From: Candidatus Acidulodesulfobacterium acidiphilum | GTDB lineage: Bacteria; SZUA-79; Acidulodesulfobacterales; Acidulodesulfobacteraceae | Assembly (NCBI GenBank): GCA_008534395.1 | Contig: SHMQ01000032.1 | Coordinates: 1 to 13,682 of the forward strand | Length of the DNA stretch: 13,682 nt | Direction: 5' to 3' | Shown: positions 2,746 through 13,317 of the stretch, piece by piece | How positions within the stretch are numbered: the stretch's first letter is position 1 | Layout of the letters: each line of letters opens with the position of its first letter | Made by a program: the position numbers and the translations under genes | The notes under the pieces: model-generated | The model's database searches: none | What the model saw: the letters and a program-made list of their open reading frames with translations, nothing else | Told to the model about the DNA's origin: nothing

Positions 2746-4440
2746 ATGCTTAAAACTTTAAAATCCAAGCTTTATTTCATCGCTGCCGCCGGTTTTATTT
2801 TTATCTTGATAGTAAACCTGTTTTTAATTTATTTTTCAAACGGTTTAAAAAACGAAATGATAAACTCCGGCGTTATTTCCGGCACTTCGACGGGAATTAA
2901 AACCTTTAAAGGAAATCTCCTGCAGATTATTTTTTTATCCCGCATAAAAATGCTCAAAATGAATGCGGTAAAATCTAAAAAAGCAAAAGCGCGGATTGAA
3001 AAATCTTACGACGCAAAGATTCTAAAATTAGTTGCCGCGTCAAAACCTATATATCGAAACGTAAGCAACGCTCTTACCGGATACACCGTTGGATTTGCAA
3101 AAGTTAAATCGGCAGTCGTCTTCGGCGAGCCAAAGTCGAAACTTAACGAATTTTCGTCGCAAAAAACCGCATTGCTGTTAAAAAGCCTTAAAAATAAATT
3201 TTATATATTCCGTCCCATAGTGGGAAGACTGCTAAAATACCCTCTTCTTCTTGGCGGCGCTATGAGCACCAAATATTTCGACAGCCAGCTTGATCCTATG
3301 GTTTCCCAAATTTCCCAGATTAGCGTCATCGTAAATAAATCTTATTATAAAAAGGTAAAATTGCTGGATTATATATTCATAGCATTCCCTATCGTATTTT
3401 TAATAGGAGCGCTGATAGTAATTTTATATTTTAAAAATTCCGTCATAAAGGTCTTAAACTTGGTGGACGAAAAAATCAAGCAGATCGCCAAGGGCGACCT
3501 TACCTCAAAAATCAAAATATCCGGCGTCCATAAAGAAAGCGAAATAGGCATCCTTATAGAACAGGTCAACAGCTTGGTAGATTCTTTATCCGGCAACGTA
3601 AAAGGCATCGTCAACACTTCCAACTCCTTAAGCTCGCAGTCCGAACAGCTTAATTCCTCTTCGAGAGAGTTCGAAAAGACCATAGAACAGATGAGGGAAA
3701 AAGCGTCCCGCATAATAGAATCCATTAAACAGATGTCTATAGCAATAATAGAAGTAGCAAAGAACTCTTCCTCTTCCGCCCAGAAAGCTCAGGAAACGGA
3801 AAAGGTCGTCGATTACGGCACTAAGTCGGTTCAGGACGTGGCGAGAGAGATGAAAAACATTGAAAAAACCGTATCCGCCGTTTCCGCCACTATTACCGAA
3901 CTAGGTTCTTCTTCCGAAAAAATAGGCGAAATCATAGGCGTAATTAACGACATAGCCGACCAGACTAATCTTCTAGCCTTAAACGCCGCCATAGAAGCCG
4001 CCAGAGCCGGAGAACAGGGAAGAGGTTTTGCCGTAGTAGCCGACGAGGTAAGAAAGCTGGCCGAAAGAACCACAAAAGCTACAAAAGAGATAGAGGCTAT
4101 GATACTTAGCATACAAAGAAACACTCAGGATGCGGTTACCTCTATGCAGAAAGGAAAAGAGGAAGTCTCCAAGGGAGCCGAGATTGCCGGAAAATCCGCC
4201 GAAGCTATATCCAACATAAATTCTTTAATGCTCAAACTAAAAGAGATGATAACGCAGATTGCCACCGCTTCTGAGGAGCAGTCGCAGGTTAGCGAAGAGA
4301 TATCTCTTTCATCCGAAGAAATAATTAAAGCACAGGACAACGCGCAGGCCGGTTCCAGGCAGGTCATAGCCTCTTCGGAAGAACTTGGGAGAATGGCTTT
4401 GGATTTGTCAAATATGGTAAGGATGTTTAAGACGGCGTAA
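2746..4440 (+). CDS. Methyl-accepting chemotaxis protein (transmembrane chemoreceptor)
   Basis: 564-aa chemoreceptor passing a periplasmic signal to the CheA/CheW array. Order: cytoplasmic basic start, TM1 about 9-30, periplasmic sensor about 31-206, TM2 about 207-229, HAMP about 230-283, then a long Ser/Ala/Glu/Gln-rich helical signalling domain to the end. The kinase-control tip is nearly canonical at 396-442 ([22 protein letters not shown], then [18 protein letters not shown]). Flanking helices with E/Q pairs supply likely methylation sites. It lacks a C-terminal NWETF-like pentapeptide, so CheR would not be tethered there. The sensor domain (K/S/L-rich, with [15 protein letters not shown] about 115-129) belongs to no fold I recognise, so the ligand is unknown. 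The start is set by a strong GGGAGGAG Shine-Dalgarno at 2731-2738. The gene stands alone, divergent from the tautomerase unit. Its signalling half is visibly more GC-rich than the sensor half. Confidence 0.96.
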
Positions 4441-4465
4441 TTTTTTAAAAAAATTCTAAAAAAAA

Positions 4466-4494
4466 TTGATTTTTTGAATTTTATGTTTTATAAT
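4466..4494 (+). promoter_or_regulatory. Strong sigma-70 promoter with A-tract UP-like element, driving a short transcript
   Basis: TTGATT at 4466-4471, 17-nt spacer, perfect TATAAT at 4489-4494. The -35 is preceded by A-tracts (4447-4453 and 4458-4465) that resemble an UP element. The predicted start is near 4501, at GG. No ORF of useful length follows; an intrinsic terminator comes 50 nt later. It sits 26 nt after the chemoreceptor stop codon, so it is not that gene's promoter. Confidence 0.7.
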
Positions 4495-4500
4495 TAAAAT

Positions 4501-4587
4501 GGAAGAGGTTTTATGTTTTCATCTTAACTCCTCGATGTAATGTCCTCCTAACCTGCCGGTTACCAACTACTTCCGGCAGGTTTTTTT
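4501..4587 (+). ncRNA. Candidate small regulatory RNA of about 85 nt
   Basis: The interval is bounded by its own sigma-70 promoter (4466-4494) and ends at a strong intrinsic terminator (4551-4587), so an RNA of about 85 nt starting GGAAGAGG is predicted. It holds two CU-rich stretches, CTCCTC (4528-4533) and TCCTCC (4543-4548), both complementary to Shine-Dalgarno cores. The 5' GAGG (4505-4508) can pair with CCTC (4530-4533), which could mask one of them. Coding potential is trivial: ATG TTT TCA TCT TAA at 4513-4527 and a start-stop ATGTAA at 4535-4540. I recognise no known RNA family. The alternative is that this is simply an extended 3' end of the chemoreceptor mRNA, but the near-consensus promoter argues for an independent gene. 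Confidence 0.55.
4551..4587 (+). terminator. Rho-independent terminator
   Basis: Perfect 9-bp GC-rich stem: ACCTGCCGG (4551-4559) pairs with CCGGCAGGT (4573-4581), with a 13-nt loop, followed at once by a T7 tract (4581-4587). It is oriented to stop plus-strand transcription, ending both the predicted small RNA and read-through from the chemoreceptor gene. Confidence 0.9.
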
Positions 4588-4774: not shown

Positions 4775-4850
4775 TGGCTCCCCGAGACGGATTCGAACCA
4801 TCGACCCAGTGATTAACAGTCACTTGCTCTGCCGGCTGAGCTATCGGGGA
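4775..4850 (-). tRNA. tRNA-Asn (anticodon GUU)
   Basis: 76-nt cloverleaf on the minus strand including an encoded CCA. The acceptor stem TCCCCGA pairs with TCGGGGA. The D arm contains AGCTCAG...AGAGC. The anticodon stem AGTGA/TCACT closes the loop CTGTTAA with GTT at positions 34-36, and the T arm has GGTTCGAATCC. U1-A72 and discriminator G73 agree with bacterial tRNA-Asn. I see no duplicated 3' end nearby that would mark an integrated element. Confidence 0.97.
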
Positions 4851-6261: not shown

Positions 6262-7047
6262 CTATTTTTCAATTAAACCGTTTCCGCTTAAATCGTATTT
6301 ATTTCCGTAGCCTCTCCTCGTTATCATGAATAATTCGTTTACGAATGTATTGCCGTTGCCTATTATTATGGAAGAATTCATGCTTACTATATCGAATTTG
6401 TCGATATTTTCAAGCGTCGTAATAACTATTTCTTCGTCGGGTCTCGTTACCGCCTTTGCTATAACCGCAGGCCTGTCTTTTTCTATAGTTTCCAGCAAAA
6501 TATTTTTCGCCTGCGTTAACTCGTCTTTCCGCTTCATGCTCTTGGGATTATATATTATTATTACGAAATCTCCCGCCGCCGCAGCTCTTAGTCTTTTTTC
6601 TATATCCTGCCAGGGCGTTAAAAGATTGGACAGCGAAACAACGCAAAAATCGTTCGTTATCGGCGCTCCGGCGGCAGCCGCCACGGCGCAGAATGCCGGA
6701 ATGCCCGGAACTATTTCTACGGGAACTTTTCCGGTAAGGGACTGTTCGTCTAAAATTTCAAGCAATAAACCGCTCATGCCGTAAATTCCGGCATCGCCTC
6801 CGGAAACTAAAGCAGTCGTTTTTCCTTCCAAAGATTTTTTAACCGCCGCTTCGCACCGCTTAATTTCGTCTTTCATATTAAACGGAATCTTTTCCTGCGT
6901 ATCTTTCAATAAACCGCTAATCTGCTTTAAATAAGACGAATAGCCTATAACCGCTTCAGCTTCCATAATCGACTCCAAAGCCTTTTTGCTTAAATGCTCC
7001 AATCCGCCGGGTCCGGTTCCTATAACCGTTATTTTTCCATAGTTCAT
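6262..7047 (-). CDS. cbiH: Cobalt-factor III / precorrin-3B C17-methyltransferase (CbiH/CobJ)
   Basis: SAM-dependent tetrapyrrole methylase that methylates C17 and drives ring contraction in corrin synthesis. In order: GTGPGG (10-15), VIGYSSYL (33-40), SAM-binding VSGGDAGIYGM (81-91), VPGIPA (113-118), the CbiH/CobJ signature LSNLLTPWQDIEKRL (139-153), YNPKSMKR (166-173) and GNGNTFV near the end. At 261 aa it is close to the usual 240-250 and, unlike most cobalamin enzymes here, carries no low-complexity insertion. An AAGGAAA ribosome site stands about 8 nt before the ATG. It lies 43 nt after cbiG and is the last corrinoid gene of the row. The presence of cbiG and cbiD places it in the cobalt-containing (anaerobic) pathway, so the cbiH name is preferred over cobJ. 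Confidence 0.95.
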   Translation of the reverse strand: MNYGKITVIGTGPGGLEHLSKKALESIMEAEAVIGYSSYLKQISGLLKDTQEKIPFNMKDEIKRCEAAVKKSLEGKTTALVSGGDAGIYGMSGLLLEILDEQSLTGKVPVEIVPGIPAFCAVAAAAGAPITNDFCVVSLSNLLTPWQDIEKRLRAAAAGDFVIIIYNPKSMKRKDELTQAKNILLETIEKDRPAVIAKAVTRPDEEIVITTLENIDKFDIVSMNSSIIIGNGNTFVNELFMITRRGYGNKYDLSGNGLIEK

Positions 7048-7090
7048 TTTTTCATTTCCTTAACTTAAATTAAATCAATTATTTTTTATT

Positions 7091-8509
7091 CTAAATTTGA
7101 CCGATACTTATGACGGCCGCCGACGCCGTAACGTTTCCTTTTTTTTGCTTCGGTATCAGGGGCGTCCTTAAATTTTTAGCGGACATCATTGCGCAAGGTT
7201 CGCAGACCGAATATGCCCCCGTATATTTAAAACTAGGAGATTTTAAGTATTCAGACGATACCTGCGTATTTTTTGAAACAAACGATTCCATAAAAGCGTT
7301 TATTTCGCCTTTTGAATAGAAATCGATAAATCTGCCGTATTTAAATCCAAAATCCAAAAGCCCGCGCTCGTTTTTTTTATTGTCTATAGAAGCAATGTTT
7401 CTTATGGTATTTAAAGCAATGCCGTTTTTTTCGAATATTTCCGAAACAAAATCTTCTATCTCCTTTAAACCTGTATTCCTGTTGCATCCAATCCCTACGA
7501 CTAAACGTTTCGGCCTTAAAATGGCAATGTTTTTCGACTTCTCCAAGCCGTTCAAATCTTTTTTTATAGTAACTATTATTATTTTATGCTTATCCTTAAA
7601 ATTTTCGGAATTTAATTTCAAATTTTTAAAATCTAACGCCCCGTTTATTTTTATTCTTTTCGCGTTAATAAAACCTTTTACGTATTGTTTTATATCGAAA
7701 TCTTTGTAATTATCTTCCAAAATTATTTCAAAACTTTCGTCCTTAAGCGACGCTTCATTGAAATCCTTGACTTTTTTCTTCGCATCTTCTATATAAAAAT
7801 CGAATTTTTCGGCAAAAGCGTCTATCGAAAATTTATTTTTGGAATCCGTAGCCGTAGTTATTACCGGAATAGAATTTTCAATATATCCCGAAATTTCTTC
7901 GGCGAGCCTGTTTGCTCCGCCTATATGCCCCGAAAGCAGGCTTACTATAAATTTTCCGGCTTCGTCCACAGTTATTATGCCGGGGTCTTTATACTTATTT
8001 TTCAAATAAGGTGCAATTAACCTAACGACTGCGCCGACGGCAAGAAAAAATATTATATAATCGAAGTTTTCAAACAATAATTTAACCGTATCTCCGTCCG
8101 AAAGTTTTTTGTATTTTTTGATTTCAAATTCAATATTAATAAATTTAAATTTAAAAGGATTTAATTTTAATTCCTTTAATTCCTTTATTAATGCGGCGTA
8201 AGCGGATTTAATTAAAACTTCTTTATTTTCTTCTATAAAAAAATTTATTTTATAGTATGCTTCGGATTCATCGGCAGATTTTTTATTTATTAGGCCCCTG
8301 CAAATTTTAACGGCATTAGACAAAGAATTTTCCGATATTATAACGAATGCTATAGAGTTAATTTTTTCTATATTTATACTTATATTAATATCTGCATCTG
8401 CATTTATATCTATATTACCGTTATCGCCGCAGCAAACGCCGCCCGCTTCTGCATTGTTATTATAAACCGGCAGAAGAATCCCTGTACCCGTGATAAAAGT
8501 TCTTGTCAT
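7091..8509 (-). CDS. cbiG: Cobalt-precorrin-5A hydrolase (CbiG)
   Basis: Opens the delta-lactone of cobalt-precorrin-5A and releases the C2 fragment as acetaldehyde; a marker of the anaerobic route. The central domain is clear: FLAVGAVVRLIAPYLK (155-170), DPGIITVDEAG (175-185), LLSGHIGGANRLAEEI (191-206). The C-terminal domain starts at RLVVGIGCNRNTG (335-347) and ends with GAYSVCEPCAMM (431-442) and NVTASAA (459-465). At 472 aa it is about 120 longer than the Salmonella protein. The excess includes a 50-residue N-terminal stretch rich in N/I/D/A before the first conserved strand (IAFVIISENSLSNA, 53-66) and longer loops in the first domain. The ATG lies inside cbiF (50-nt overlap) with no Shine-Dalgarno, and no better in-frame start follows, so coupled translation is likely; the exact start is the least certain point. 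Confidence 0.93.
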   Translation of the reverse strand: MTRTFITGTGILLPVYNNNAEAGGVCCGDNGNIDINADADINISINIEKINSIAFVIISENSLSNAVKICRGLINKKSADESEAYYKINFFIEENKEVLIKSAYAALIKELKELKLNPFKFKFINIEFEIKKYKKLSDGDTVKLLFENFDYIIFFLAVGAVVRLIAPYLKNKYKDPGIITVDEAGKFIVSLLSGHIGGANRLAEEISGYIENSIPVITTATDSKNKFSIDAFAEKFDFYIEDAKKKVKDFNEASLKDESFEIILEDNYKDFDIKQYVKGFINAKRIKINGALDFKNLKLNSENFKDKHKIIIVTIKKDLNGLEKSKNIAILRPKRLVVGIGCNRNTGLKEIEDFVSEIFEKNGIALNTIRNIASIDNKKNERGLLDFGFKYGRFIDFYSKGEINAFMESFVSKNTQVSSEYLKSPSFKYTGAYSVCEPCAMMSAKNLRTPLIPKQKKGNVTASAAVISIGQI

Positions 8510-9347
8510 AAAGTTTCGACTTGTTATTTTTAAAATATTTCCCGTTAAGAGCTTCTCCGACTATTAAAACCGCCATATTTTTTATTGAAAATTCTTCGGC
8601 TTTTTTAATGACGTCTTTTAATTTACAGTTTATTAAAAACTGGCTTTTTAAAGACACGTCTTTTGCTATAAGGCAGGGCGTATCTTCATTGTAAGATTCA
8701 AGCAGGTCTTCGGTTACGGACTTTATCAGTCCGAAGCTTAAATATATAGCCATAGTAGCTCCGTGCTTTGCGAGGCTTTTTATATCCTGTCCTTCGGGCA
8801 TCTTGCCCGTCCTTCCTTCGCCCCTGCAGAATATAACGGTTTGCGAAACGTCCGGCATGGTCAAAATAGATTTGTTTGCTGCGCTTGCTGCGAAAGCGGC
8901 GGTGACGCCCGGTACAATTTCATATTCCACGCCCATCTCTTCCAAATAAGCCATCTGTTCGTTTATTGCGGAGTATATAGAGGAGTCTCCCGCATGCAGT
9001 ATAGAAATTACTTTCACTCCGCGCTTTATATCTTTTCCGTCTCTGTCATATCTGCCGTCTTTTCCGTCTTTAACCGAAATTGAACCTTCTATGCCGTTTT
9101 TGTTTTCGTTTAAACTTAAAATATTTTCGACTTTAGTTTTTATTTCTTCAAAATTAAGGCTTTTTATATCTATTAACTCGGCGCCCTTTTTGATAATTTT
9201 AAGCATTAAAGGATTAATTAAAGAACCTGCGTAAAAAACGGCATCCGATTTTTTTAATATTTTTGCGGCTTTAACGGTCAGCAGTTCCGGGTCGCCGGGA
9301 CCTGCGGACACAAAATATATTTTAGATTTTAAAAATTTATTATTCAT
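8460..9347 (-). CDS. cbiF: Cobalt-precorrin-4 / precorrin-4 C11-methyltransferase (CbiF/CobM)
   Basis: SAM-dependent methylase acting on C11 of the corrin precursor. It shows SAGPGDPELLTVKA (14-27), YAGSLINP (39-46), SAM-loop HAGDSSIYSA (118-127), VPGVTA (145-150), MPDVSQT (164-170) and the CbiF signature RGEGRTGKMPE (175-185) followed by HGATMAIYLS. The usual HTGDPSLYGA loop reads HAGDSSIYSA here, so Pro of GDP is Ser. About 30 extra residues (80-109, Gly/Lys/Asp-rich) are inserted before the SAM loop and are encoded over a 12-bp direct repeat. The length of 295 aa compares with about 257 in Salmonella. A GAGGAT ribosome site lies about 12 nt upstream of the start; cbiL ends 15 nt before. 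The last 50 nt overlap cbiG. Confidence 0.94.
   Translation of the reverse strand: MNNKFLKSKIYFVSAGPGDPELLTVKAAKILKKSDAVFYAGSLINPLMLKIIKKGAELIDIKSLNFEEIKTKVENILSLNENKNGIEGSISVKDGKDGRYDRDGKDIKRGVKVISILHAGDSSIYSAINEQMAYLEEMGVEYEIVPGVTAAFAASAANKSILTMPDVSQTVIFCRGEGRTGKMPEGQDIKSLAKHGATMAIYLSFGLIKSVTEDLLESYNEDTPCLIAKDVSLKSQFLINCKLKDVIKKAEEFSIKNMAVLIVGEALNGKYFKNNKSKLYDKNFYHGYRDSSAGL
9031..9069. repeat. 12-bp direct repeat inside cbiF encoding part of the insertion
   Basis: TCTTTTCCGTCT occurs at 9031-9042 and again at 9058-9069, offset by 27 bp (nine codons), so the frame is kept. On the coding strand it yields the DGKDGRYDRDGKD segment of CbiF. A repeat-slippage origin of this extra loop is plausible. 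Confidence 0.8.
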
Positions 9348-9362
9348 ATTATATTTATATCC

Positions 9363-10175
9363 TCACAAAAACACGCCTATTAAAATTGAAAAATAATCGA
9401 AATCCAAATCGGTTTTCTTTGTAAAATCTTTTACGACTTCCGATTTTTCTATTAAATACAGTTTTATTTTATCGTTTTCGTTCTCTCCGTATATGCCCCC
9501 TAAAACATCTTTAAACGCTTCCAGAATATTTTTTACGCAGTTTCCAGCTTTCATAAAAACTATGCTTTGCGGACGCGAAATTCTGGATTTATCGGCTATA
9601 AATTTTATTTCCGCTTTTAATTCATTTATGCTTTTTTTAAGCGGCACCGATATTAAAACGCTCGCATTTTTAGCTATGTACGGTTCTTCAAGCAGTCCGA
9701 AAGAATACAAAAAAGAAGAAACGCCGTTAATAATAATAATATTTATAGTAAAATTTTTCGCCTCAATTTCTTTAAAAGCGGCGTGAATTCCGAAATAGGT
9801 ACTGTAAAACGCCGGGTCCCCAAGAGTAACGTATGAGACGCACGAAACGCTTTCGTCTGTCAATTTTTCATAAATTTTTAAAGCGTTTTCCCTGTATAAA
9901 TCTTTATTTTTGCCTGTAGAACGCTTCATTTCTACCTGCAAAGGAATAAGCCTGTTTTCGTCGATACCGCCCAAACCGGCAAATTTTACCGCGCTTTTAA
10001 CTATATCGTAAGCGGTTTTGTTTTTGCCTCCGCAGACGTCTGGATAAAATATATAGTCGCTTTTAATCACGGCGTTTATTGCTTTTACCGTAATAAGCTC
10101 AGGATCTCCGGGTCCTACCCCGACTACGAACAGAGTTTTTTGTACGCCCCCGCTTCCGCTTCCGCTAACGCTCAT
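9363..10175 (-). CDS. cbiL: Cobalt-factor II / precorrin-2 C20-methyltransferase (CbiL/CobI)
   Basis: First ring methylase committed to corrin formation, adding methyl at C20. Visible: GVGPGDPELITVKA (19-32), FYPDV (43-47), SAM-binding LGDPAFYSTY (118-127), GVSSF (151-155), and FMKAGNCVKNI (207-217), a C-terminal region typical of CbiL/CobI. At 270 aa it is slightly longer than the usual 230-250; a Ser/Gly-rich start (MSVSGSGSGG) encoded by a hexanucleotide repeat accounts for part. The ATG overlaps the cbiE-cbiT stop by 11 nt, so initiation is probably coupled to upstream termination. CbiL and CobI cannot be separated by motif alone; the cbi neighbours favour the cobalt-containing substrate. 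Confidence 0.93.
   Translation of the reverse strand: MSVSGSGSGGVQKTLFVVGVGPGDPELITVKAINAVIKSDYIFYPDVCGGKNKTAYDIVKSAVKFAGLGGIDENRLIPLQVEMKRSTGKNKDLYRENALKIYEKLTDESVSCVSYVTLGDPAFYSTYFGIHAAFKEIEAKNFTINIIIINGVSSFLYSFGLLEEPYIAKNASVLISVPLKKSINELKAEIKFIADKSRISRPQSIVFMKAGNCVKNILEAFKDVLGGIYGENENDKIKLYLIEKSEVVKDFTKKTDLDFDYFSILIGVFL
10152..10175. repeat. Degenerate hexanucleotide repeat at the cbiET/cbiL junction
   Basis: Four 6-nt units on the plus strand: GCTTCC, GCTTCC, GCTAAC, GCTCAT. On the coding strand they give the Ser-Gly run at the CbiL N-terminus; the cbiE-cbiT stop (TAG, 10167-10165) lies in the third unit and the cbiL start codon in the fourth. Unit gain or loss in multiples of 6 would keep the cbiL frame. 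Confidence 0.7.
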
Positions 10176-11979
10176 TTTTGCCGCTCCCGCCGTTTTCTAT
10201 GTCGTAATTTAAATCGTTTGCGCCGTCTCCTTCATTTGCGTTTAATCCGCTAAATTCATCATCGGACTTAGGCGCTCCTATAGTTTTATTCCTTACTTTT
10301 ACTTTAGGCATTTTAGAATTTAATTCTTCGCTTTTTTTATCGCCTCTATTTTCTATTTTAAATGTCATATTTCTTTTTTTGCCCGCAGTTTCCGCTTCCG
10401 GCTTAATTTCGGTTTTGCGTTCCGTTTCAGCCCCGGTTTTAGCAAGCGGACTTGACTCAGGTTTTGGTCTTCCGTCGATTTTAGGTTCTATTTTAGTCTC
10501 TGCATTCTGTTTTAAAAACTTTTTGGTAATTTTAACTGCATAAATCTGGTTTAAAGCCTGAAAGTATGATGTTTCGCCGATCGATTTCAGCCTTGAAACG
10601 CTTAAGGAAACCATTTCGTATTTAAGCCCGGCGTTTTTAATAAAGTTAATTACCGCATATAAAGTTTCTATCGTGACGGCGTTAACTACGATAACTCCGT
10701 TCTCTTTCAGTATATTTAAAAATTCTTTCAATATTTCGTCTATGTTTTCGGCTCCTCCGCCCCCTATAAAAACAGAATCCGCATTAACGCCTTTTAATTT
10801 TAAATTTAAACGGCTTTTTATAGCGTCCGGAAGTTCGCCTAATATCGGCTCTATGTTATTTCTTCCGAATTTTTTCATATTTCTTTTTAGATTTTCAATT
10901 TTTTGCTTATTTTTATCGATAGAATAAACTTTGCCTCTGAAAGCGAGTCCTGCGGCTTCTATGCTTATGCTTCCGCTTCCGCAGCCTGCGTCTATTATAA
11001 CTGAATCCTCTCTAATCTCCATCATACCGAGGCTTACCGACCTTATCTCTTTTTTCGTAGGCTCTCCGGAAGCATGTATATATCTGTCGTCCTCTATGCC
11101 CAATATTATATTTCTATTTATATTGACATTAACGGCATCTACGGCGTTTGCGGCCGTTCCAGCAAAATTAACGTTGTTATTATAATTACCGCTATTACTG
11201 TTTTTACCGTCTGCATGGTTTTCGGCTTTCAAAGATTCAGTTTTATTTTTTTGATTTTTTTCCTTTAATATAACGATATTTTTTTTACCGCTTATATCTT
11301 CCAAAATCTCTTTCGTAAAATTTTTATATATTTTTTCGTTTTTAGAGCATAATTCCGTCAGGACATAAAATTCAAAATTTTCTAAAATACCTTTTTCTTC
11401 AAGTTCGCCGTAAATTTTATCAGGAGTGTTTATTTCATCGGTATATATACCTATTATTTTTTCGGAATTAAGTACGGGATGCAGGCCGTCAAAACTTCTT
11501 CCGTGAAGGCTTAATATATAAGCATGCGTCATAGGAATTTTTAATTTTGAAAATCCTATCTGCATATAGCTTATTGCCGGATATATTTCTATAAACCTTT
11601 TTTCGTTTTCTTTTAATCCGCTGATTATGGTACCGCCGATACCGAAAAAATTAGGGTCACCGTTTGCAAGTATTAAAATATTTTTTTTTCCGAGATTTTC
11701 TTTAACGTAATCTTCGATAAATTTTATTTTCCCGTCGTAAAATATCTTAGCATTGTTTAACCTGCTTATATTTCCGTTATTTTCAAGAACTAGGCTTTTC
11801 TTTTCTGCGGATATTTGCTCCCTGACCCACGTAAGAAGATGCGAATCTTCTTTTTTTGCAAACACCGTATCTATTCTGTTTTTTTTATCGCTAAACATTT
11901 CTAAAATCTGTTTTCTTGCAATATCCTGATAGCATGGAGAAACTCCTACTATATAAACTTTCTTAGACGTTTTTGCCAT
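10165..11979 (-). CDS. cbiET: Fused CbiE-CbiT cobalt-precorrin methyltransferase/decarboxylase (CobL-like) with long disordered tail
   Basis: Two-domain enzyme methylating C5 and C15 and decarboxylating the C12 acetate. The CbiE half (about 1-238) has LANGDPNFFGIGG (104-116), YPAISYMQ (133-140), AYILSLHGR (153-161) and TDEINTPDKIY (180-190). The CbiT half (about 291-487) is a class I methylase with DAGCGSGSISIE (330-341), YSIDKNKQ (352-359) and FIGGGG (404-409). Odd: the CbiE N-terminus reads VYIVGVSPCYQDIA (8-21), so the family's Gly-rich GxGPG loop is degraded. A roughly 50-residue N/A/V/G-rich linker (240-290) separates the domains, and a charged, Lys/Glu/Pro-rich tail (488-604) without predicted fold follows CbiT. 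Natural CbiE-CbiT fusions are about 400 aa; this is 604. The ribosome site GGGAGAG is inside the end of cbiD, 3 nt away. Confidence 0.93.
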   Translation of the reverse strand: MAKTSKKVYIVGVSPCYQDIARKQILEMFSDKKNRIDTVFAKKEDSHLLTWVREQISAEKKSLVLENNGNISRLNNAKIFYDGKIKFIEDYVKENLGKKNILILANGDPNFFGIGGTIISGLKENEKRFIEIYPAISYMQIGFSKLKIPMTHAYILSLHGRSFDGLHPVLNSEKIIGIYTDEINTPDKIYGELEEKGILENFEFYVLTELCSKNEKIYKNFTKEILEDISGKKNIVILKEKNQKNKTESLKAENHADGKNSNSGNYNNNVNFAGTAANAVDAVNVNINRNIILGIEDDRYIHASGEPTKKEIRSVSLGMMEIREDSVIIDAGCGSGSISIEAAGLAFRGKVYSIDKNKQKIENLKRNMKKFGRNNIEPILGELPDAIKSRLNLKLKGVNADSVFIGGGGAENIDEILKEFLNILKENGVIVVNAVTIETLYAVINFIKNAGLKYEMVSLSVSRLKSIGETSYFQALNQIYAVKITKKFLKQNAETKIEPKIDGRPKPESSPLAKTGAETERKTEIKPEAETAGKKRNMTFKIENRGDKKSEELNSKMPKVKVRNKTIGAPKSDDEFSGLNANEGDGANDLNYDIENGGSGKNER

Positions 11980-11982
11980 ATT

Positions 11983-13317
11983 TTACAATCTCTCCCTTTT
12001 TATTTCGTTTCCGCCGTAATCTATAAGTACTATTTCTATGTCGATATCGTTGCTACCGGCGTTTTTTACGATATTATACAATTTTTCTGCGGCTTTTTTT
12101 AATAATTTGCCTAAAATATCGTCCGAATAAATATTATAATCGTCAGAAGTTATATGCCCGAAAGCTTCCCGCGAAGTATTAGAGTTAATTATAAGTCCGT
12201 AAATATGCTCCGCGTCGATTTCACTATACTTTTTAACCGCTTCTTTGGCGGTTTCCGCAAGAAAACCTAAATCTAATACGGCATATTTAGCATTAGTGTT
12301 TCTTGCGCCTTGGGCAATTTTAACTATTTTCCCGAATTGTCCGGCGAATATTATATTTTTAATTCCGGTACCGGAAACTTTTCTTAAAGAATACGAAACG
12401 TAATCGCCTATTTCTATAAAACTTTCCCTGCGGATATTTTTAAATATTTTTAATGCCGCTTTTTCGCTGAATCTTCCAGGCGTAAAAACGCAGGTGTCTA
12501 TTTTATTCGCTTTTAAAAAACTTAAGCAGGCTTTAATAGTTTCGAGCCATGCCTTGGTAGATATAGGAACGACGTATCCCGATGTTCCAAGTATGCTTAT
12601 GCCTCCTTCGATGCCGAGCCTCGGATTTAAAGTCCGTTCCGCAATTTTTTCTCCTTTCGGCACATAAAGTACCGAAAAAAATATTTTCCCGGCGTAGCCG
12701 CCGTAATTAAGGCTGTCTTTTGAGCCCGTCTTCAATTCTAATATTTTTAACTTTAATTCTTCTTCGGCAGCCGATTCTATCATTTTATACGGAACCGGAT
12801 TTATTGCCGGATAACCCGCTTTTACCGGCAGCCCTTTTCTCTTAACCGTCCCTATGCCTTTAGACGATACGAAAATTATCGTCGAACCATTGCATAAAGG
12901 ACATTTTATTATATTATAAACCAAGAATTTTTCATAATATTTTTTAAAACTTTTTACGGCATTTTTATCTTTTTTATCTATAACCGTAAAATCGGCGCAA
13001 ATTTCAATTCCGCCGGTTACGTCCGCAAAATCGTCTCCCGAGTCCTTTATTAAAACGGATTTTGAAATAATATATTCGTCTTCCGGCTTTAATTTGAATT
13101 TCGATAACGATGCAACTTTTAAACAGGTATTTTCGCCGCCCGGCATTTTTATTTCTACAGAATTAAATTTTTCGTCTTCAAAATAGTATCTTATAGATGC
13201 TTTTACCGCCGCCGCGCTTGTACTGCCGGTGGAAAAACCTTTTCTTAAGCCTGAAACGTGGTTGCCTGCCGTCTTTGCAATCGATGTTTCCATCTCCGCC
13301 GTTTCCGCCGTCTCCAT
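11983..13317 (-). CDS. cbiD: Cobalt-precorrin-5B C1-methyltransferase (CbiD)
   Basis: Methylates C1 in the anaerobic corrin pathway; its fold differs from the other ring methylases. Signature blocks: LRKGFSTGSTSAAA (24-37), KDSGDDFADVTGG (91-103), GIGTVKRKGLP (154-164) with AGYPAINPVPYKMI (167-180), RTLNPRLGIEGGISILGTSGYV (228-249; P232 to G244 form the core), FTPGR (278-282) and FAGQFGK (324-330). At 444 aa it exceeds the usual 360-380. Additions are a Glu/Thr/Ala start encoded by 9-bp repeats and an insertion at about 112-150 that carries a CPLC pair (C139, C142). The start shares its A with the upstream stop (TAATG), without a clear ribosome site, so translation is probably coupled to the barrel-protein gene; Met9 is a possible alternative start. 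Confidence 0.94.
   Translation of the reverse strand: METAETAEMETSIAKTAGNHVSGLRKGFSTGSTSAAAVKASIRYYFEDEKFNSVEIKMPGGENTCLKVASLSKFKLKPEDEYIISKSVLIKDSGDDFADVTGGIEICADFTVIDKKDKNAVKSFKKYYEKFLVYNIIKCPLCNGSTIIFVSSKGIGTVKRKGLPVKAGYPAINPVPYKMIESAAEEELKLKILELKTGSKDSLNYGGYAGKIFFSVLYVPKGEKIAERTLNPRLGIEGGISILGTSGYVVPISTKAWLETIKACLSFLKANKIDTCVFTPGRFSEKAALKIFKNIRRESFIEIGDYVSYSLRKVSGTGIKNIIFAGQFGKIVKIAQGARNTNAKYAVLDLGFLAETAKEAVKKYSEIDAEHIYGLIINSNTSREAFGHITSDDYNIYSDDILGKLLKKAAEKLYNIVKNAGSNDIDIEIVLIDYGGNEIKRERL
13288..13314. repeat. 9-bp tandem repeat at the 5' end of cbiD
   Basis: Immediately after the start codon the coding strand reads GAGACGGCG, GAAACGGCG, then a diverged GAGATGGAA: three 9-nt units giving ETA-ETA-EME. 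The conserved CbiD fold begins only at residue 24, so the repeat lies in a dispensable leader. Confidence 0.75.

Follow-up and report, generated by a model that had tools for sequence, protein, structure and literature searches.

Several families of bacterial small RNAs are known to act at the start regions of messages. MicF, MicA and RybB of enterobacteria are trans-acting, Hfq-dependent RNAs that repress porins, and the cuckoo RNAs and the AbcR and alpha-r families of alphaproteobacteria are small RNAs carrying anti-Shine-Dalgarno CCUCC motifs. Helicobacter pylori is regarded as having no Hfq. The target of RepG of H. pylori is a G-repeat within a chemotaxis receptor mRNA leader (PMC8295292). 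The sulfur-oxidation cluster of Hyphomicrobium denitrificans is controlled by sHdrR and SoxR, two ArsR-type transcriptional repressors (PMC12423496). The paper describing them mentions neither small RNA, sRNA nor post-transcription, and the literature searched, a scope in which most subscription journals are not included, yielded no description of sHdr being controlled by a small RNA.

The window, which is the whole stretch of 13,682 nucleotides analyzed here, belongs to a 2.09-Mb genome, of which it forms contig C32. An earlier note had proposed that a separate small RNA gene with two anti-Shine-Dalgarno-like motifs lies within it, and comparative data now strongly support this proposal. The features concerned are the following:

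2746..4440, + strand: methyl-accepting chemotaxis protein gene, the upstream neighbor, outside the RNA gene (Pfam MCPsignal, 2.3e-52)
4466..4494, + strand: sigma-70-type promoter TTGATT-N17-TATAAT (read from the sequence; pattern scan 10/12)
4501..4587, + strand: small RNA of about 87 nt (covariance-model matches in 22 of 30 family genomes)
4505..4533, + strand: possible 5' hairpin of GAGG (4505-4508) and CCTC (4530-4533) with box 1 in its loop (weak)
4516..4525, + strand: box 1, TTTTCATCTT, antisense to start codon regions (conservation, energy ranks, shuffle test)
4538..4550, + strand: box 2, TAATGTCCTCCTA, antisense to Shine-Dalgarno regions (conservation, energy ranks, shuffle test)
4550..4587, + strand: intrinsic terminator, 10-bp stem and T7 (stem covariation)
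4778..4850, - strand: tRNA, the downstream neighbor, whose anticodon region reads tRNA-Asn (Rfam tRNA, 65 bits)

In g1 genomes the tRNA gene and the RNA gene converge, and genes that by eye belong to cobalamin biosynthesis (precorrin and cobalt-precorrin enzymes) follow one another on the - strand of the window at 6262-13317.

The -35 box TTGATT (4466-4471) and the -10 box TATAAT (4489-4494) are separated by 17 nt and preceded by A-tracts, and the RNA would start at 4501, 7 nt past the -10 box. Reading of the sequence confirmed the earlier description of the promoter, the A-tracts, CTCCTC (4528-4533), TCCTCC (4543-4548) and GAGG, as well as of the chemoreceptor ribosome site GGGAGGAG at 2731-2738. 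The terminator is composed of the arms AACCTGCCGG (4550-4559) and CCGGCAGGTT (4573-4582), a 13-nt loop and a T7 tract (4581-4587); the tract is as first described, the stem has 10 bp rather than 9, and the pattern scan overlooked the structure because its loop limit was 8. The fold of the 90-nt RNA is better than that of its shuffles (z = -3.1). The alignment of relatives revealed no conserved ORF inside the gene, in agreement with the original statement that no meaningful ORF is present: the ATG at 4499 is unconserved, and the ATG at 4513 opens a 4-codon frame that is absent in L010 and others. Taken on its own, the promoter is not above chance, as the window contains 46 promoter-like sites compared with 40.6 +/- 5.7 in shuffles.

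The single-sequence features of the RNA gene are unremarkable when taken alone; the evidence lies in a conservation confined to promoter, RNA and terminator. Mean identity of ten relatives to the window was 0.78-1.00 from the -35 box through the terminator stem, compared with 0.66-0.77 where the chemoreceptor gene ends, 0.45 in the gap that follows this gene, 0.55-0.57 directly past the terminator stem and 0.17-0.39 from 4620 onward. Searching relatives for the promoter, the CU motifs and the terminator showed that promoter, terminator and TCCTCC are kept across genera. The promoter, 0.85-0.91 identical among relatives, is retained in all genera examined, with TTGACT or TTGACA as the -35 box in some and a weaker -10 box in the g4 copy, and the terminator stem displays changes on both sides at 6 of its 10 pairs, with 99% of cells paired versus 21-59% with slid partners. 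The genes beside this conserved unit differ: it is usually found downstream of the chemoreceptor gene in g1, between a branching-enzyme-like gene and 3-dehydroquinase in g2, and next to an upstream P-type ATPase gene in g4 and an upstream trehalose phosphatase gene in g5; in g6 a type II/IV secretion ATPase gene lies close by. With its own promoter and terminator conserved in such different surroundings, 4466-4587 is almost certainly, as judged by comparison of sequences, a real, free-standing and previously unlisted small RNA gene.

At the DNA level, promoter, RNA and terminator are together 78-95% identical in many family genomes, and more divergent copies were detected in other genera. A covariance model located the RNA in 22 of the 30 family genomes, with all six genera represented, and a second model searched against 339 genomes recovered the same 22 carriers; the other eight assemblies are mostly fragmented, and in G013 the contig stops inside the gene. 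No credible member was found by covariance model in 309 genomes outside the family, where two weak matches were taken as chance. Scanning 84,980 species genomes for the exact two-box pattern gave 18 stretches, 17 of them in metagenome bins of the source lineage (one titled Deltaproteobacteria); a match in Rhodoferax lacus was ascribed to chance. The list of relatives goes from the same family directly to the same domain, which fits an isolated lineage, and the RNA was credibly found in one family of acid-mine-drainage bacteria only, probably Candidatus Acidulodesulfobacterales (PMC6776010). The earlier note recognized no described family, and Rfam likewise returned no match for the RNA at gathering or permissive thresholds (best sub-threshold E value 0.6 or worse), the gathering threshold being reached in the window by the tRNA only. 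The RNA belongs to no described family testable here and would act in the manner of a classical trans-acting small RNA. Two unusual copies were observed. In that of G026 (contig C100; L017, 1501-1687), about 50 bases are inserted between the boxes, and box 2 (ACGTCC) and the terminator, with a compensated stem, have changed too; this copy may be decaying. G023, a g2 genome, has its own g2-type copy on C191 and a g1-type copy on the 4.6-kb contig C98 (L008), the latter either acquired horizontally or misbinned with its contig.

Hfq (PF17209) was detected in 0 of the 30 family genomes in a search whose controls were positive in 5 of 14 genomes, suggesting that small RNAs in this family act without Hfq or with another chaperone; a host encoding Hfq, as the Hfq-dependent class would require, was not found among them.

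The RNA varies between genera in the sequence and length of its 5' end and its linker, and retains two boxes. The box 2 core ATGTCCTCCTA (4540-4550) shows no variation among the 19 sequences of alignment A1, and box 2 has one base changed in L017 and one in L108. Box 1 is conserved in five of six genera, with single changes in G019 (TTTTCACCTT) and G018 (TTTCCATCTT), and is not recognizable in G017. Of the two CU motifs singled out at the outset, TCCTCC thus lies inside the invariant 11-mer, whereas CTCCTC is less conserved, and the second conserved element is instead box 1 at 4516-4525, which had been missed. CCUCCU is common to box 2 and the 16S tail, which is canonical in this lineage (GGAUCACCUCCUUU), and the conservation of box 2 exceeds CCUCC, the preceding ATG and the following TA being kept as well. 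The conserved parts of the RNA are mostly single-stranded boxes, with the terminator as the sole conserved helix. The idea that the 5' GAGG masks a CU motif is weakly supported: among 10 sequences its pairing with CCTC shows one compensatory change (L005) and one break (L016), and the hairpin is not kept in other genera.

Targets were predicted in three relatives, the window's own genome being left out, by scoring each start region against the RNA of its own genome in samples of 660 kb (G003), 800 kb (G016) and 540 kb (G019), which contain 603, 682 and 488 genes and make up 28-36% of each genome. The top-ranked start regions belong to one cluster, with genes for an ArsR-type regulator, hdrC1, hdrB1, hdrA, hdrC2, hdrB2, lbpA1, lbpA2, lipS1 and a lipoate ligase, which matches the sHdr-LbpA sulfur-oxidation arrangement known from the literature (PMC12423496, PMC10332631) and is separated from the RNA gene by about 11-27 kb in each of the three. 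By duplex energy in G003, G016 and G019, box 2 ranked hdrB1 1/603, 2/682 and 2/488 and box 1 ranked hdrA 1/603, 24/682 and 2/488, ranks that are not clean probabilities given related genomes, partial samples and exploratory target finding. In an 8-gene sliding window the cluster was best in G003 (1/589) and G016 (1/661), and in G019 it was first by score and second after shuffle correction. The predicted duplexes of the G003 RNA comprise 15 contiguous pairs with hdrB1, spanning the Shine-Dalgarno sequence and the start codon (GGAGGACATTATGTC), and 14 with hdrA (TTAAGGTGAAAACA). These best conserved partners of box 2 and box 1, which are adjacent genes, each beat 99 of 100 shuffles preserving the TCCTCC or CTCCTC core, so that the start-region complementarity is unusual and above chance in this exploratory test on samples of three genomes. 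GAGGRCATTA is kept at hdrB1 in 13 genomes, despite a start codon several bases further downstream in g2, and in G019 the single base changed in box 1 makes a perfect match of what was a wobble at the hdrA GTG start, while spoiling the match to a porin-like gene.

Close hdrA and hdrB1 orthologues are absent in 12 of the 22 carriers, the window's own genome included, and other targets must therefore keep the boxes there. The cluster (hdrA 349 aa, hdrB1 363 aa) is patchy, occurring in about half of the family and often near the RNA gene. A second sHdr-type cluster, about 46% identical, is present in nearly every family genome; as a target in genomes without the first, its match was not striking.

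The best candidate for keeping the boxes in genomes without sHdr is the porin-like gene, which box 1 ranked 2/603, 1/682 and 61/488 by duplex energy in G003, G016 and G019; with target accessibility included the result was less clear (7/372 and 27/353). Its start region GGAGGTAAAGATG is found in all six genera with small changes in some species, compared with 5 of 12 positions shared by typical G003-G016 orthologue start regions, and the encoded protein is about 57-77% identical across the six genera. The pattern GGAGG-N-AAGATGAAA gave 28 matches versus 3 for the reversed control, and 11 of the 28 are the porin-like start region. The protein (L138 and orthologues) measures about 550-640 aa and occurs in 24 of the 30 family genomes. 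It has neither a Pfam family nor a PDB relative, and its only NCBIfam match is weak and partial, so that it is called porin-like because of its signal peptide, composition and C-terminal phenylalanine.

When the exact box 2 complement TTAGGAGGACAT was used as a target pattern, most matches were to the RNA gene, and atpD was matched in one genome. Secreted proteins showed no enrichment among the highest-scoring start regions of the three genomes sampled, and outer-membrane-like proteins were enriched in one genome only. The nearby chemoreceptor, whose ribosome site had been noted earlier as complementary to both CU motifs, did not stand out, its start region ranking 68th against 603 sister-species start regions and the neighborhood varying between genera. 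A separate observation concerns the gene for a second outer-membrane-like protein, of 269 aa (MIRKIK..., an L305-like start), which ranks first among box 2 partners in G016 and ninth in G019 and in which 12 start-region bases are identical between these two genera.

As the boxes fit the start sites of sulfur-oxidation and outer-membrane genes, the RNA probably lowers their translation. We propose that it is a trans-acting, probably Hfq-independent RNA of about 87 nt, made from its own promoter, in which box 2 would pair over the Shine-Dalgarno sequence plus the bases after it and box 1 over the start codon plus the next codon, blocking the 30S subunit. In species carrying sHdr-LbpA, the best predicted targets would be hdrB1 for box 2 and its neighbor hdrA for box 1; throughout the family, box 1 would have the porin-like gene. 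In our judgment, the RNA quite probably acts by pairing at start regions. That the whole is best explained by an Hfq-independent RNA with two antisense boxes occluding translation starts we hold with moderate confidence. The odds that sHdr and the porin-like gene are its specific targets approach even without passing it, and we advance only tentatively the view that occlusion of the hdrB1, hdrA and porin-like starts links post-transcriptional control of sulfur oxidation to envelope composition. The RNA would be expressed upon some switching-on signal, would pair with its messages in the cell, and would repress rather than activate them.

If these targets were not special, box 2 might mimic the 16S 3' end and dampen many strong messages, and the CCUCCU shared with the 16S tail, the invariance of box 2 also in genomes without the sHdr cluster, and the above-average scores of sHdr start regions with the 16S tail alone all point in this direction. 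Broad action of this kind, however, would leave unexplained that box 2 is conserved beyond CCUCC and box 1 separately from it, and shuffles keeping TCCTCC reached the sHdr complementarity in only 0/60, 2/60 and 0/60 cases (1/100 for hdrB1); we regard it as unlikely, although worth keeping in mind.

Two further readings dispense with message pairing or with the gene itself. A free-standing RNA might act on a protein as a sponge, or be some other structural RNA, message pairing being a prediction; yet single-stranded boxes rather than helices are what has been conserved apart from the terminator, and the two boxes independently select neighboring genes, which makes this very doubtful. The locus might alternatively be no more than the 3' untranslated region of the chemoreceptor gene and its terminator, with promoter and motifs arising by chance in AT-rich DNA, as its position 26 nt past the chemoreceptor stop in g1 and the frequency of chance promoter-like sites would allow. 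Promoter and RNA are nevertheless conserved above the chemoreceptor coding end and retained beside unrelated genes in other genera, and we give this reading hardly any credence. A start-site-pairing small RNA remains our preferred explanation.

The RNA would represent the first well-supported regulatory small RNA family of this lineage of uncultivated acid-mine bacteria. If the proposal is true, dissimilatory sulfur oxidation by sHdr, known for its transcriptional repressors, is also controlled at translation without Hfq, and the survival of the RNA in genomes without the sHdr cluster offers a natural experiment on the upkeep of seeds by other targets.

Rfam revealed no sequence relation to MicF, MicA or RybB, which this RNA resembles in being short, in having its own promoter and intrinsic terminator and a start-region antisense seed, and in counting an outer-membrane gene among its predicted targets; it differs in that those RNAs are Hfq-dependent, whereas no Hfq was found here, and in its predicted sulfur-oxidation operon target. 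It shares a CU-rich anti-Shine-Dalgarno motif with the cuckoo, AbcR and alpha-r RNAs but differs in lineage and architecture, sequence having been compared through Rfam only, with no match. The use of a C/U-rich pairing element against a G-rich leader recalls RepG (PMC8295292), although two boxes are conserved here and the neighboring chemoreceptor is not a notable target. Finally, sHdrR and SoxR control the same type of cluster, which is headed by an ArsR-type gene here as well, but they do so transcriptionally, whereas the RNA described here would add a translational layer.
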